Source: Murinocardiopsis flavida
GTDB taxonomy: Bacteria; Actinomycetota; Actinomycetes; Streptosporangiales; Streptosporangiaceae
Assembly (NCBI RefSeq): GCF_003014485.1
Contig: NZ_PYGA01000022.1
Coordinates: 1-64,000, forward strand
DNA length: 64,000 nt
Direction: 5' to 3'
The translations under genes were made by a program, and so were the position numbers. How positions within the stretch are numbered: the stretch's first letter is position 1; each line of letters begins with the position of its first letter. Of the stretch, positions 51,316 through 55,969 are shown piece after piece. The notes under the pieces are model-generated. The model saw only the letters and a list, made by a program, of their open reading frames with translations. It made no database searches and was not told the DNA's origin.

Positions 51316-52125
51316 ATGCACATTCCTGCACATGGGTCCCGCGGGCGCCGCGCCGCCCGCACCGCCGTCGTGGCGCTGTCCGCGCTCGCCGTCACCGGCG
51401 GCGGCACCGTGGCGCACGCCGCGGCGGTACCCGCCTCCCCCGCATACTCCGCCCCCTACACCAACGGCGCCGTCGACGCCCGCCCGGCCGCCAACGACCC
51501 CACCGGCGTCCCCGCGACCATCTCCAAGAAGGGACTGCTGAGCCAGGGCGACTCCGGGCCGAAGGTCAAGGCCCTCCAATCGCGCCTGCTGAAGCTCGGT
51601 TACTGGATCGACTCCGCCGACGGCGAGTTCGGCGGCAACACCAAGCAGGCCGTCTACGCGGTGCAGAAGGCCGCCGGCCTCGGCCGCGACGGCGTCGTCG
51701 GCCCCCAGACCCAGGCCGCCCTCGACAAGGGCGTCCGGCCCAAGGCGACCAGCACCAAGGGCCGCGTCATCGAGATCGACCTCAAGCGGCAGCTGCTGCT
51801 CGTCGTCGACAACGGCAAGGTCCGCCAGATCCTGAGCACGTCCACCGGGTCGGGCAAGCCCTACACCCAGGACGGCAAGAAGCACACCGCCACCACCCCC
51901 AAGGGCGACTACAAGGTGTTCCGCGGCGTCGACAAGTGGGACCCCGGGCCGCTGGGCAAGCTGTACCGGCCCAAGTACTTCAACGGCGGCATCGCGGTGC
52001 ACGGCTACGGCTCCGTGCCGCCGTACCCGGCGTCCCACGGCTGCGCGCGGGTGAGCCTCGCCGCGATGGACTGGCTGTGGAAGGACGGCAGGATGTCCTA
52101 CGGCACCATCGTCCGCGTGCGCTGA
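51316..52125 (+). CDS. L,D-transpeptidase (YkuD) with peptidoglycan-binding domain
   Basis: A 269-aa secreted cell-wall enzyme. The signal peptide occupies about residues 1-36 (RRAARTAVVALSALAVTGGG then VAHAAAVPA). A PG_binding_1 domain follows (QGDSGPKVKALQSRLLKLGY; DGVVGPQTQAALDKG). The YkuD domain begins around VIEIDLKRQLLLVVDNGKVR and has the catalytic motif HGYGSVPPYPASHGCARVS with nucleophile Cys and upstream His. It forms or remodels 3-3 crosslinks. The start is ATG 51316. The stop codon lies inside the first unit of a 32-bp tandem repeat. Confidence 0.92.
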   Translation: MHIPAHGSRGRRAARTAVVALSALAVTGGGTVAHAAAVPASPAYSAPYTNGAVDARPAANDPTGVPATISKKGLLSQGDSGPKVKALQSRLLKLGYWIDSADGEFGGNTKQAVYAVQKAAGLGRDGVVGPQTQAALDKGVRPKATSTKGRVIEIDLKRQLLLVVDNGKVRQILSTSTGSGKPYTQDGKKHTATTPKGDYKVFRGVDKWDPGPLGKLYRPKYFNGGIAVHGYGSVPPYPASHGCARVSLAAMDWLWKDGRMSYGTIVRVR

Positions 52126-52268
52126 GCAGCGCCCGCACCACGGCGCAGGCGCACTGAGCGGAGCCCGCCCTCTGGCGCGGGCGCGCTGAGCGGTGCCGGC
52201 GCCACGGTGCGCGTGCGCTGAACGGTGTCGGCGCCACGGTGCGAGCGCGCTGAGCGGCGCCGCCGCGG
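52119..52268 (+). repeat. 32-bp tandem repeat array overlapping the transpeptidase stop codon
   Basis: Four full 32-bp units (52119-52150, 52151-52182, 52183-52214, 52215-52246) and a 22-bp partial unit (52247-52268). Each begins GCGCTGA(G/A)CGG or close to it, and the best conserved pair (units 3 and 4) continues with GGCGCCACGGTGCG. Unit 1 contains the TGA of the L,D-transpeptidase gene. There are no spacers, so it is a degenerate minisatellite rather than CRISPR. Confidence 0.85.
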
Positions 52269-52380
52269 TTCGGCCATACGCCGGACGCCGTCCCGGGCGG
52301 TTGCCTAGGGAGGAGGCGGTGGGCGCGGCGCCGCCGACTAGGGCGACTTCCCGATAGCGCAGGCCAGGGCCTTACGGCGA

Positions 52381-52745: not shown

Positions 52746-53579
52746 GTGGCCCAGCGCTCATCCCCCAATGACCGCGGCGCCTCTCTTGTCGAGTACGCAG
52801 CGGTGGTCGTCCTTGTCGGTGCCATCTTCGCCGGCCTTTACAGTGCAATCTCCCCTTCCTTTATCAGCAGCTCGGTCGCCGGAGCGGTCGACTGCCTCAC
52901 CCTGTCCGAGGACTGCGGTACCGATCCGGACTCCGCCAAGGGCGCTCCCGAGTCCGCGTCGGACCCCGGTGAGCCCACCCCGAGCCGGGCCGACCGTGCC
53001 GCCCCGGACCCGTCGGCATCTCGGGACGCTGCGGGCGACCCGCCCGACCGTGCAGAACCCACGAAAGACGCCGAACCAACCAAGGACGGCGGCGGGGGTT
53101 CACCTGACGACGGTGCTCTCAATTTCACCTTCTTCGACTTCGGCTCCGGGCTGGCACCCGACCCCGAGACCAAGCCCGCTGACGTCAACAAGTGGTGGAA
53201 GGGCCTCAGCAAGGCCGAGCGCAAGGAGGTCATGCGCAAGGAGCCCGACGCCATCCGCAACCTCGACGGCGTTCCCGCCGCGGTCCGCGACAAGCTCAAC
53301 CGCGAGTTCCTCACAGAGGAAATCGACCGGATGCTGGAAGAGGAGGGTATGACCCGAGAGGAGGTCCGGAAGTTCGACCTCCAGGACGTCCGCCCCGAGG
53401 GCTGGACCGAATCCCGTGCCGACGGTGCGCCATCTCTGGAGCTGTGGGAGTTGGAGAAGCTGGAGCGGACCGTCACCGCGAAGGACTCCGACCACTACAT
53501 CCTCGGGCTGGACCCGAGCGAGGGGGAGGGCCGCGCGATCGTCTCGACCGGTAACCCCGACACCGCCGACAACGTCTAA
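52746..53579 (+). CDS. N-terminal part of a frameshifted protein: prepilin-like leader plus helical linker
   Basis: A 277-aa frame beginning with GTG 52746 behind GGAG. The start NDRGASLVEYAAVVVLVGAI is a Flp/TadE class III prepilin-like signal: Gly before the cleavage point, Glu five residues later, then a hydrophobic helix. A 90-residue Asp/Pro/Ala-rich spacer leads to a helical region (WWKGLSKAERKEVMRKEPDA; NREFLTEEIDRMLEEEGMTR). HYILGLDPSEGEGRAIVSTG then begins the alpha/beta hydrolase domain. TAA at 53577 interrupts this domain; the rest continues in another frame from 53582. Together the two frames span 52746-54178. Confidence 0.8.
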   Translation: MAQRSSPNDRGASLVEYAAVVVLVGAIFAGLYSAISPSFISSSVAGAVDCLTLSEDCGTDPDSAKGAPESASDPGEPTPSRADRAAPDPSASRDAAGDPPDRAEPTKDAEPTKDGGGGSPDDGALNFTFFDFGSGLAPDPETKPADVNKWWKGLSKAERKEVMRKEPDAIRNLDGVPAAVRDKLNREFLTEEIDRMLEEEGMTREEVRKFDLQDVRPEGWTESRADGAPSLELWELEKLERTVTAKDSDHYILGLDPSEGEGRAIVSTGNPDTADNV

Positions 53580-53581
53580 CA

Positions 53582-54178
53582 CTGGTACCCGGAACGGGAA
53601 TCAAGTGGACGGCGATCAACGGTCAGCTCGGCCGGGCCGAGAATGTCCACCAGTCCGCAGACCTGGCCGACAGCGAGTCCGACCACGCGGTGGTCTCCTG
53701 GATCGGATACGACAGTCCTGGGTGGACTGGGGCCGTCTCCGGTGGACACGCGGACGACGGCAAGGACGACCTCCAGGACTTCCAGGCTGGACTGCGCACC
53801 ACACATAGGGGCGCCCCGTCGAACAACACGCTCATCGGGCACAGCTACGGCTCGACGGTGGTCGGTGCCGCAGCGCGCAACGACTCCGGGGCCTACGCCG
53901 ATAACCTCGTGCTCGTGGGAAGTCCCGGAGTCGGGAGTGAACTCACCGATCTGAAGTTCGACGGTGGCATGAAGGACATCCACGTCGTCATGTCGGAGAA
54001 CGACTGGGTTCGCGACAGCGAGTCGTACCAGACGCACTACTTCGACAAGCAGGAGGACCCGCGGGCGACTCACGTCCAGACCGACCCGGAGACCGAGCAC
54101 GACGGGTACTTCAATGACTCCGAGACCCCCGAGATGGAACATATCGGCAAGGTCGTTGCCGGTACGAGGCGCGACTAA
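53582..54178 (+). pseudogene. C-terminal alpha/beta hydrolase (DUF1023/Abhydrolase_8) fragment after a frameshift
   Basis: The 198-codon continuation of the preceding frame, displaced by +1 (or -2) nt at 53577-53581. It opens LVPGTGIKWTAINGQLGRAE, the typical DUF1023 entry motif, then DHAVVSWIGYDSPGW, the nucleophile elbow NNTLIGHSYGSTVVGAAARN and NLVLVGSPGVGSELTDL. All expected hydrolase blocks are present after the shift, so a single recent lesion, sequencing error or recoding event separates the two parts. If translated alone it could start at GTG 53690, which would omit the first strand. Confidence 0.8.
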
Positions 54179-54192
54179 GGAAGGAGGGCGGT

Positions 54193-54660
54193 ATGCGCCG
54201 GGTGAAATGGTTCGTTTGGGCTGCGGCGATAATGCTGCTGGCCGGTTGCGGAGGTCCCGATGATGTGCCGGAGAGTCCTCTCGATGAGGGGCAGGCGGAG
54301 CGGCGCGTCGATACGCACATCGATGACACGGTTACGGTCCTGCCCGACTCGCTGGAGCTGGAGTTGGTGGGTCCAGCGGTGAAAGCTTCGTGCGACCACG
54401 AGACCTTCCTCTCCGTGTCCAAGAAATACTGGCTGCGTGACATACCGCCCGGCGAGAACGAACAGCACGTCGAGGCGCTGGTCGAGTATTGGAAGGACCA
54501 CGGCTACACGGTGCATAGCGACCAGCGCCCCGACAACCTGTTCGTGTCGGTGGAGCACAAGAAGGACAAGTTCAGCATGTCGGTGCGCTCCAGCATCCAG
54601 AAGGAACTCTCCATCGGCGCGAGTTCGCCGTGCATCCATCCCGATGGCGCCGACCGTTAG
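54193..54660 (+). CDS. Putative lipoprotein downstream of the hydrolase
   Basis: A 155-aa secreted lipoprotein. The signal ends in the lipobox LLAGC (Cys near residue 19), preceded by RRVKWFVWAAAIM. The mature part is acidic to mixed: DDVPESPLDEGQAERRVDTH; LVEYWKDHGYTVHSDQRPDN; LFVSVEHKKDKFSMSVRSS. Two later Cys residues could pair. It lies 14 nt after the hydrolase stop with AAGGAGGG upstream, so it is co-transcribed. The pairing suggests an immunity or chaperone partner of the exported hydrolase, which is inference only. Confidence 0.8.
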   Translation: MRRVKWFVWAAAIMLLAGCGGPDDVPESPLDEGQAERRVDTHIDDTVTVLPDSLELELVGPAVKASCDHETFLSVSKKYWLRDIPPGENEQHVEALVEYWKDHGYTVHSDQRPDNLFVSVEHKKDKFSMSVRSSIQKELSIGASSPCIHPDGADR

Positions 54661-54706: not shown

Positions 54707-55969
54707 TCACCGCAGTTGGCGGTGGCCCCAGAGGACGGAGAGCGGCATCGAGTAGATCCCGTCGCCGCGCGACGCGGCCTCGGTGCCGAGGTGCAGCAGG
54801 ATCCCGGCGTGCAGGCGCTCGCCCAGCCGCTCGCGCAGCCACCGGAGTCCTTTCAGGGCACGCGGGCCCGGCGAGCTCGACGCCTTCAGCTCAATGGCGA
54901 CGATCTTGCCCGCGGGACCCTCCAGGACGAAGTCGACCTCGTTCTGGTCGGTACTGCGCAGATGGAAGGCGCTGGTGCGCGTCTCGCTGTACGACCGGGC
55001 CTTGAGCAGTTCGGTCGCAACGAAGGTCTCCATCAGCGGCCCAAGCGCGGGATGCCCTGGCTCGGCCAGCTCGGATGCTCCGACGCCGAGGAGGTGCGCC
55101 GCCAACCCCGAGTCGGTCGGGTAGAGCTTCGGGGTCTTGAGCAGCCGCGCCGTCAGGTTGGTCGACCACGCGGGCAGGCTCGTCGTCAGGTAGACCATGT
55201 CCAGGTAGGACAGGTAGTTCTTGGTGGTCTCCCTGGCGAGTTCGACGCTCTGGGCGAGGTCGGACAGGACGGCGATGCTGCCGGCGCGGGCGGCGACGAG
55301 CCCGAGGAGGCGCGCCGCCGCGTCTCCGTGAGTGATGCTCGCGAAGTTCGAGATGTCGCGGTTGATCACCGTTTGGAGATAGCCGTCGAACCACGCGTGG
55401 CGCGCTACACCCGGGGGGATCGAGACGGCCTCCGGGTAGCCGCCCGCGACGACGCACTCCAGGTACTGCTCTCGCGTCCAGGTCGAATTGTCGAGGAGCG
55501 CCGAGGGCGATGCGAAGGCACGGGTCAGGAAGTCCTCGCTCGCACCGGTGCGCTCGCGCATGCTCAGCGGCCAGAGGTCGACGAAGGCCATTCGCCCCGC
55601 CAGGGATTCCGACAGGGTCGGGATGGTCAGGAAGCGGCTCGATCCGGAGAGGACGAATCGGCCCGGCCGGGGGTCGGCGTCGACGGCGACCTTGATGGCG
55701 CGGATCAGGTCGTCGCCGCCGAGCTGGACCTCGTCGATGATCCTGGGCGAGTCGCCGTATTCGGCGAATGCCGCGGGATCGTCGCGGCTCGCGCGGAGCG
55801 TGTCCGCGTTGTCGAGGGTGCGGTAGCTCCCCCCGCCGCCGTCGGCCAGGTAGCCCTTCATCAGGGTGGTCTTGCCGGCCTGCCGGGGGCCGCCGACCAT
55901 GACGATCCGCAAGTGATCGGCCAATTGTGAGAGTCGGCCGGCGGCCACGCGCGCAACCAGGTCGGACAT
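54707..55969 (-). CDS. AAA_14/DUF4143 ATP-binding protein
   Basis: A 420-aa protein. The N-terminal AAA_14 ATPase has Walker A IVMVGGPRQAGKTTLMKGYL, Walker B-like SPRIIDEVQLGGDDLIRAIK and sensor FVLSGSSRFLTIPTLSESLA then GRMAFVDLWPLSMRE. The C-terminal DUF4143 domain ends with a nuclease-like fold: TDQNEVDFVLEGPAGKIVAI followed by ELKASSSPG, an E/D...D...ExK pattern. The cellular role of this widespread family is unknown; it is patchily distributed and often mobile. Three 24-bp dyad repeats lie just upstream of its start (ATG 55969). Confidence 0.88.
   Translation of the reverse strand: MSDLVARVAAGRLSQLADHLRIVMVGGPRQAGKTTLMKGYLADGGGGSYRTLDNADTLRASRDDPAAFAEYGDSPRIIDEVQLGGDDLIRAIKVAVDADPRPGRFVLSGSSRFLTIPTLSESLAGRMAFVDLWPLSMRERTGASEDFLTRAFASPSALLDNSTWTREQYLECVVAGGYPEAVSIPPGVARHAWFDGYLQTVINRDISNFASITHGDAAARLLGLVAARAGSIAVLSDLAQSVELARETTKNYLSYLDMVYLTTSLPAWSTNLTARLLKTPKLYPTDSGLAAHLLGVGASELAEPGHPALGPLMETFVATELLKARSYSETRTSAFHLRSTDQNEVDFVLEGPAGKIVAIELKASSSPGPRALKGLRWLRERLGERLHAGILLHLGTEAASRGDGIYSMPLSVLWGHRQLR

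Follow-up and report, generated by a model that had tools for sequence, protein, structure and literature searches.

What is the leader of a pilin doing at the front of a hydrolase? The question is raised by positions 52746-54660 of a 64,000-nucleotide stretch of the Murinocardiopsis flavida genome (hereafter the window; contig NZ_PYGA01000022.1, forward strand). Here a class III prepilin-like N-terminus precedes a DUF1023 hydrolase domain that is broken by a frameshift, and a lipoprotein gene starts 14 nucleotides (nt) past the hydrolase stop. A first-pass annotation made from this single locus had described the layout as that of a surface-tethered hydrolase effector with an immunity-like lipoprotein, and had not recognised it as a described system. 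Prepilin N-terminus, hydrolase domain and lipoprotein were all confirmed at their positions, and the locus was found to belong to a genome-wide family of about 30. We interpret it, with a probability of roughly 0.6, as a broken copy within a polymorphic toxin (effector) system that uses a Flp-type prepilin as its trafficking domain.

A genome-wide family of prepilin-leader proteins

The interrupted gene begins with an open reading frame (ORF) of 277 amino acids (aa) on the + strand (52746-53579; GTG start, premature TAA at 53577-53579), which runs through a spacer into the N-terminal part of the DUF1023 domain. Its N-terminus, MAQRSSPNDRGASLVEYAAVVVLVGAIFAGLY, is a class III (type IVb/Flp) prepilin leader (52746-52916, +; profile match at 52749-52916, E=1.2e-21) composed of a basic n-region, Gly11 (codon 52776-52778) at -1, Glu at +5, Tyr at +6, a hydrophobic helix and a short segment ending in Cys. 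Aligned with the 79-aa Flp pilin of the same genome, the window leader has 23/49 identities and a score of 98, compared with a maximum of 42 for shuffled sequences. The Flp_Fap (PF04964) and DUF4244 models gave only sub-threshold matches to the leader, and the genome's own Tad-locus Flp pilin was likewise below the cut-off.

Used as a query, the N-terminal ORF matched about 15 other long ORFs of its own genome over residues ~4-139. A leader profile built from an alignment of 21 leaders was searched in this genome and in 149 relatives. It identified 33 places in M. flavida, 43 in G049 and 25 in G071, with any match in 59 of the 149 relatives. These 33 places rule out the leader as a quirk of one protein and, together with the alignment to the Flp pilin, bear out the class III identity that had been proposed. 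A Gly or Ala at -1, Glu at +5 and Tyr or a similar residue at +6 are found in 75 of 78 distinct long leader proteins. Asn replaces Glu +5 in three long leader proteins of relatives (GEGAVNY type); a pilin subunit without Glu5 has been described as a filament-tip cap (PMC10191384). In a phylum-wide sample, profile matches outside the own genome were mostly to short proteins of 50-150 aa, as for plain Flp pilins, and the expansion into many long proteins thus looks concentrated in this lineage.

Pfam matches to the leader proteins indicate what the leaders carry. In the own genome, PT-HINT is over the cut-off in 11 leader proteins. Other C-termini over the cut-off are an ADP-ribosyltransferase exoenzyme (PF03496), a PF00545 ribonuclease, a PF09000 colicin E3-type cytotoxic domain, DUF4160, calpain and a DUF6782 metallopeptidase; an Ntox50 match fell below it. 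Leader proteins of Nocardiopsis potens include a PF14424 deaminase and two calpains. The toxin-like domains are often preceded by PT-HINT, and the DUF1023 member is without it. A common N-terminal domain, a PT-HINT subset and known toxin C-termini, by which polymorphic toxins are recognised, are all present in the family.

Small genes directly behind the leader proteins were sought with a simple codon-based gene caller at 74 of them, and one was called at 44. Where a HINT-bearing leader protein has a paired gene, that gene encodes a small soluble protein in all 15 cases. Leader proteins without HINT are followed by a lipoprotein (15), a transmembrane or secreted protein (7) or a soluble protein (7). 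The difference between lipoprotein and soluble partners by HINT status has a Fisher P of 2e-5, which is optimistic because the rows include homologous copies. This pairing is what would be predicted from the site of toxin action, with soluble antidotes for cytoplasmic toxins and surface lipoproteins for extracellular hydrolases and proteases.

Two further groups of leader proteins were seen in the own genome. A five-member subfamily (L040, L042, L045, L066 and L068) has long C-terminal regions that are apparently common to its members (DEFAFIRQEYSDG... type), with no Pfam match in those scanned; a gene for a small membrane protein adjoins some of them. Two leader proteins (L034:1656-2777 and L046:3135-4316, both on the - strand) share a HAHNDY...VEADV motif that by eye is like that of glycerophosphodiester phosphodiesterase-like enzymes, and the one that was scanned has no Pfam match.

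Linkage to the Tad locus

A complete Flp-type Tad locus is present in the same genome (G000:C20, L052). It comprises CpaB-, TadZ-, TadE-, TadA-, TadB- and TadC-like genes, a two-component pair, the Flp pilin and a TadG-like gene, all named by the character of their sequences and by their order. The gene for an A24 prepilin peptidase lies elsewhere in the genome. Among the 149 relatives TadA scores are bimodal, at least 580 bits in 36 genomes and at most 408 in the others. At least four leader proteins were found in 27 of the 36 genomes with Flp-type TadA and in 0 of the 113 without it; within the taxonomic family the corresponding figures are 26/31 and 0/59. The genera g37 and g48 contain both TadA states, and in each the leader proteins go with TadA.

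Leader proteins also cluster near the locus. Of 41 long leader proteins in seven near-complete genomes, 15 are at most 50 kb from tadA, where 0.75 would be expected. In Nocardiopsis potens a run of about nine leader proteins stands beside the Tad locus, most with a small gene directly behind. The resemblance of the leader to Flp pilins and its co-occurrence with Tad loci point to Tad processing or export; the description as surface-tethered was not supported.

A pilin-leader-like protein also adjoins the Flp pilin inside the Tad locus, both in M. flavida (L052:6470-6997, -) and in N. potens (L053:10107-10709, +). A weak match to SLT transglycosylases in the N. potens copy raises the possibility that this protein opens the wall for the Tad machine.

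The hydrolase-lipoprotein cassette

The long disordered spacer that had been proposed between leader and hydrolase is real for 52917-53180 (+), a low-complexity stretch rich in Pro, Asp, Glu and Ser. In an intact homologue the equivalent region is modelled with a predicted local distance difference test (pLDDT) of 30-45. From about 53181 (VNKWWKGLSKAERKEVM...LDGVPAAVRD) the proposal fails, as this is the conserved helical part of DUF1023-type proteins, with pLDDT >90 in the intact homologue. The helical module and the first hydrolase strands (VNKWW... to NPDTADNV; assigned from alignments and the homologue's predicted structure) occupy 53181-53576 (+). The remainder of the DUF1023/Abhydrolase_8 domain follows in a displaced frame at 53582-54178 (+; PF06259, E=1.5e-19), with the GHSYGS nucleophile motif at 53837-53854. 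The two halves of the broken gene were searched separately. The window fragment scores 70.8 bits against a cut-off of 20.5, and an intact homologue 94.6 bits. The hydrolase model has a typical esterase/lipase fold, and its matches are spread over esterases and lipases in general and do not single out a substrate.

The partner lipoprotein, a candidate immunity protein of 155 aa, lies at 54193-54660 (+) and has a GGAGG-type ribosome site. Its signal peptide, MRRVKWFVWAAAIMLLAG, precedes the lipobox cysteine (LLAG-C; Cys codon 54247-54249). This Cys19 is near-invariant in 34 relatives, and the protein also has a conserved Cys pair and W100.

Proteins that join the pilin leader to DUF1023 have open frames of 506, 523, 593 and 584 aa in the relatives G072, G006 and G071. 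The named records are from Nocardiopsis potens, N. halophila, N. chromatogenes and Nocardiopsaceae bacterium YIM 96095. Wherever the flanks can be tested the lipoprotein is directly behind (4/4 named species and both G071 copies, one of which is followed by two tandem lipoproteins). A search for such intact fusions had been suggested in the first-pass annotation, and its outcome agrees with the proposal of an effector-like protein with an immunity-like lipoprotein.

When DUF1023 loci were fetched by the hydrolase alone, the lipoprotein family was downstream in 63 of 78, usually at <100 nt, and about ten of these loci carry two or three lipoprotein copies. The pilin leader is present in only 4 of the 78. 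With the lipoprotein as the starting point in whole genomes, a hydrolase stands directly upstream in 25 out of some 30 loci that could be tested. Of the two observations that had been named beforehand as speaking against the proposed system, one was therefore made, as most homologues with the same lipoprotein lack the prepilin segment, which is not a part of the hydrolase family in general; the other was not, as the lipoprotein is kept beside intact hydrolases. A lipoprotein specific to the pilin fusion was rejected, since it also stands behind leaderless hydrolases. Thus, the hydrolase-lipoprotein unit is portable across front ends and the pilin leader is exchangeable. Helical segments form the other front ends, which may be type VII substrates; W-x-G-like motifs are visible in these leaderless N-termini, but Pfam returned no WXG100 match. 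In the window protein the pilin leader takes the place of a WXG100 or LXG N-terminal domain, the hallmark of type VII toxins. The G+C content of the locus is 0.67-0.69, against about 0.74 in its surroundings, which would fit an acquired cassette.

No Pfam family, including LppA (PF16708), matched any of 34 members of the lipoprotein family, and a search of the PDB sequences with the lipoprotein profile gave nothing credible. The lipoprotein model (pLDDT 88) has LppA of Mycobacterium tuberculosis (2v7s) as its best structural match (Z 11.5, 3.2 A over 124 residues) and a DUF4853 protein as its second (Z 9.2); LppA was ranked first only by a second look with VIA-align, the plain Foldseek result being weak. 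From this match LppA genes would also be expected beside DUF1023 hydrolases. In 12 LppA-family loci from the class (L193-L204; genomes G171, G321, G264, G289, G367, G359, G352, G272, G235, G326 and G371), a GHSYGS DUF1023 gene is directly upstream in 10, and an eleventh has a partial match on the other side. One genome has seven LppA copies. The two lipoprotein families thus share a predicted fold and a place behind a DUF1023 hydrolase, but differ in that no sequence similarity between them is detectable. This suggests that LppA is a partner or immunity protein of DUF1023 hydrolases; a literature search for a link between Rv2542 and lppA returned nothing.

In the window copy two bases, just before VPGTG, stand where intact homologues hold one full codon (53577-53581, +). 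The first-pass annotation had placed the frameshift correctly but had its direction as +1/-2; because two bases replace a full codon, one base has been lost on balance, making this a -1 (or +2) shift that leads to the premature stop. Programmed frameshifting is unlikely, as intact homologues (L004/L053, L101, L078) read through the point without a shift and no slippery heptamer was seen. Alternatively, the gene is intact in the organism and the shift is a sequencing or assembly error. We regard this as possible but doubtful. The assembly is a draft of 75 contigs, and an error would also suit a gene of 1.4 kb that is interrupted just once, with both halves and the partner gene well conserved in other respects, but the site lacks a homopolymer, and loss of a toxin with its immunity gene kept is a plausible natural outcome. 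Without frameshifting the window copy cannot yield the full protein, and the intact lipoprotein gene could serve as orphan immunity. In the N. potens island, a truncated-looking leader protein of 158 aa (L054:14279-14755) has kept its downstream small gene, like orphan immunity.

Around the locus, repeated GCGCTGAGCGG-like units occupy the intergenic region at 52125-52330, between an L,D-transpeptidase gene and the pilin-DUF1023 locus. Directly behind the lipoprotein, on the opposite strand, is an AAA_14/DUF4143 ATPase gene (54707-55969, -).

Proposed prepilin effectors and alternative readings

If the leader proteins are polymorphic toxins, the A24 prepilin peptidase would cut the leader and the Tad machine of the same genome would handle the product as a minor pilin or pseudopilin-like cargo. 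The variable C-terminal enzyme would thereby reach the surface of the cell or a neighbour in contact with it. From PT-HINT members, nuclease-type domains would be released to act in the cytoplasm of the target, with soluble antidotes, and extracellular hydrolase or protease members without HINT would often be paired with lipoproteins that guard the outer surface of the producer. The window payload would be a serine alpha/beta-hydrolase, probably a lipase or esterase attacking membrane lipids, with the lipoprotein as its immunity protein. A wider proposal, which we hold tentatively and at somewhat less than even odds, is that Nocardiopsis-like actinobacteria use their Tad pilus machine as a device dedicated to toxin delivery. 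Each genome would encode dozens of prepilin effectors that enter or ride the filament and bring exchangeable toxin domains to neighbours, a route undescribed for polymorphic toxins, and the cassette of hydrolase and LppA-fold lipoprotein would be shared with other export routes.

The closest parallel is with the polymorphic toxin systems of Zhang et al. 2012 (PMC3482391), which likewise have a constant N-terminal trafficking domain, optional PT-HINT, variable toxin C-termini, small downstream immunity genes and many paralogues per genome. They differ in that a pilin/Tad trafficking mode is not mentioned in the accessible part of that survey, where Imm65 is the only immunity lipoprotein. TslA, a type VII-secreted phospholipase toxin, is neutralised by the adjacent lipoprotein TilA (PMC10730906). 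It shares with the window locus a lipase-type toxin, an adjacent lipoprotein and variable tandem lipoprotein copies, but has another secretion system and domain order. The Myxococcus Kil system is a Tad-like pilus that kills by contact and, in the available portions of its descriptions, has large modular minor pilins as tips (PMC8460266, PMC12075869). Those tips are heterotrimers, and toxin-immunity pairs are not described in those portions, whereas in the actinobacterial leader family Flp-type leaders and toxin domains form direct fusions. The 2025 paper on ARC (CD38-like) polymorphic toxins (PMC12605009), as far as its text is accessible, names Flp pilins in passing among the carriers of one toxin domain but says nothing about the family of carriers or its arsenal, about Tad linkage or about a pattern of immunity. 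This passing mention is all that the literature on pilins and polymorphic toxins yielded, in a search whose coverage excludes many subscription papers and preprints; no description of the system was found in it.

The leader proteins might instead be modular pilins or surface enzymes. Tad would then display domains, catalytic or adhesive, that serve colonisation, scavenging or wall remodelling, and the neighbouring genes would encode accessory factors and not immunity proteins. Modular minor pilins with grafted domains are known for adhesion (PMC10191384) and Tad tips carry variable domains (PMC12075869); the protein with a weak SLT match inside the Tad locus and the absence of a toxin domain from the five-member subfamily are also in keeping with this. 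We consider it unlikely, as PT-HINT together with RNase, ADP-ribosyltransferase and deaminase C-termini and polymorphic small neighbours is the layout of polymorphic toxins. A foldase, chaperone or secretion partner, like a lipase-specific foldase, is another role that the lipoprotein could have, in which case the pair would be a housekeeping lipid or envelope enzyme. The tight one-to-one adjacency across broad actinobacteria, including the LppA family, suits an obligate partner as well as an antidote. Tandem lipoproteins, the seven LppA copies in one genome, lipoprotein copies without a hydrolase and the toxin-type front end are more typical of immunity, and make such a role improbable. A further reading, which we hold to be quite unlikely, is that the leader does no more than anchor the protein in the membrane or serve as a signal sequence, with export by Sec and no link to Tad. 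The leader is short and hydrophobic, and many leader proteins are far from tad loci, but the conservation of Gly -1 and Glu +5 in 75 of 78, the homology to the genome's own Flp pilin and the co-occurrence and clustering with Tad argue for more than an anchor.

Several observations weigh against the interpretation as Tad-linked polymorphic toxins. No paired small gene was called behind 30 of the 74 leader proteins, and in the Pfam scan several leader proteins had no recognisable toxin domain. Shared ancestry confounds the co-occurrence with TadA and inflates its P-values, with g37 and g48 as the few within-genus contrasts, and on the main chromosome of G071 none of 15 long leader proteins is near tadA. 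No substrate of DUF1023 is established in the literature found. What the analysis shows directly is the leader, the architecture of the proteins, the size of the family, its linkage to Tad, the pairing of genes, the portability of the cassette and the predicted folds; processing, Tad-dependent export, incorporation into the pilus, toxicity, substrate and neutralisation are inferred.

If the interpretation of the leader proteins as prepilin effectors is correct, polymorphic toxins would gain a Flp prepilin/Tad trafficking mode, and the poorly understood Tad pili of actinobacteria would gain a role in antagonism. It would also offer a function for DUF1023 hydrolases and LppA-family lipoproteins, as toxin-immunity or enzyme-inhibitor pairs.
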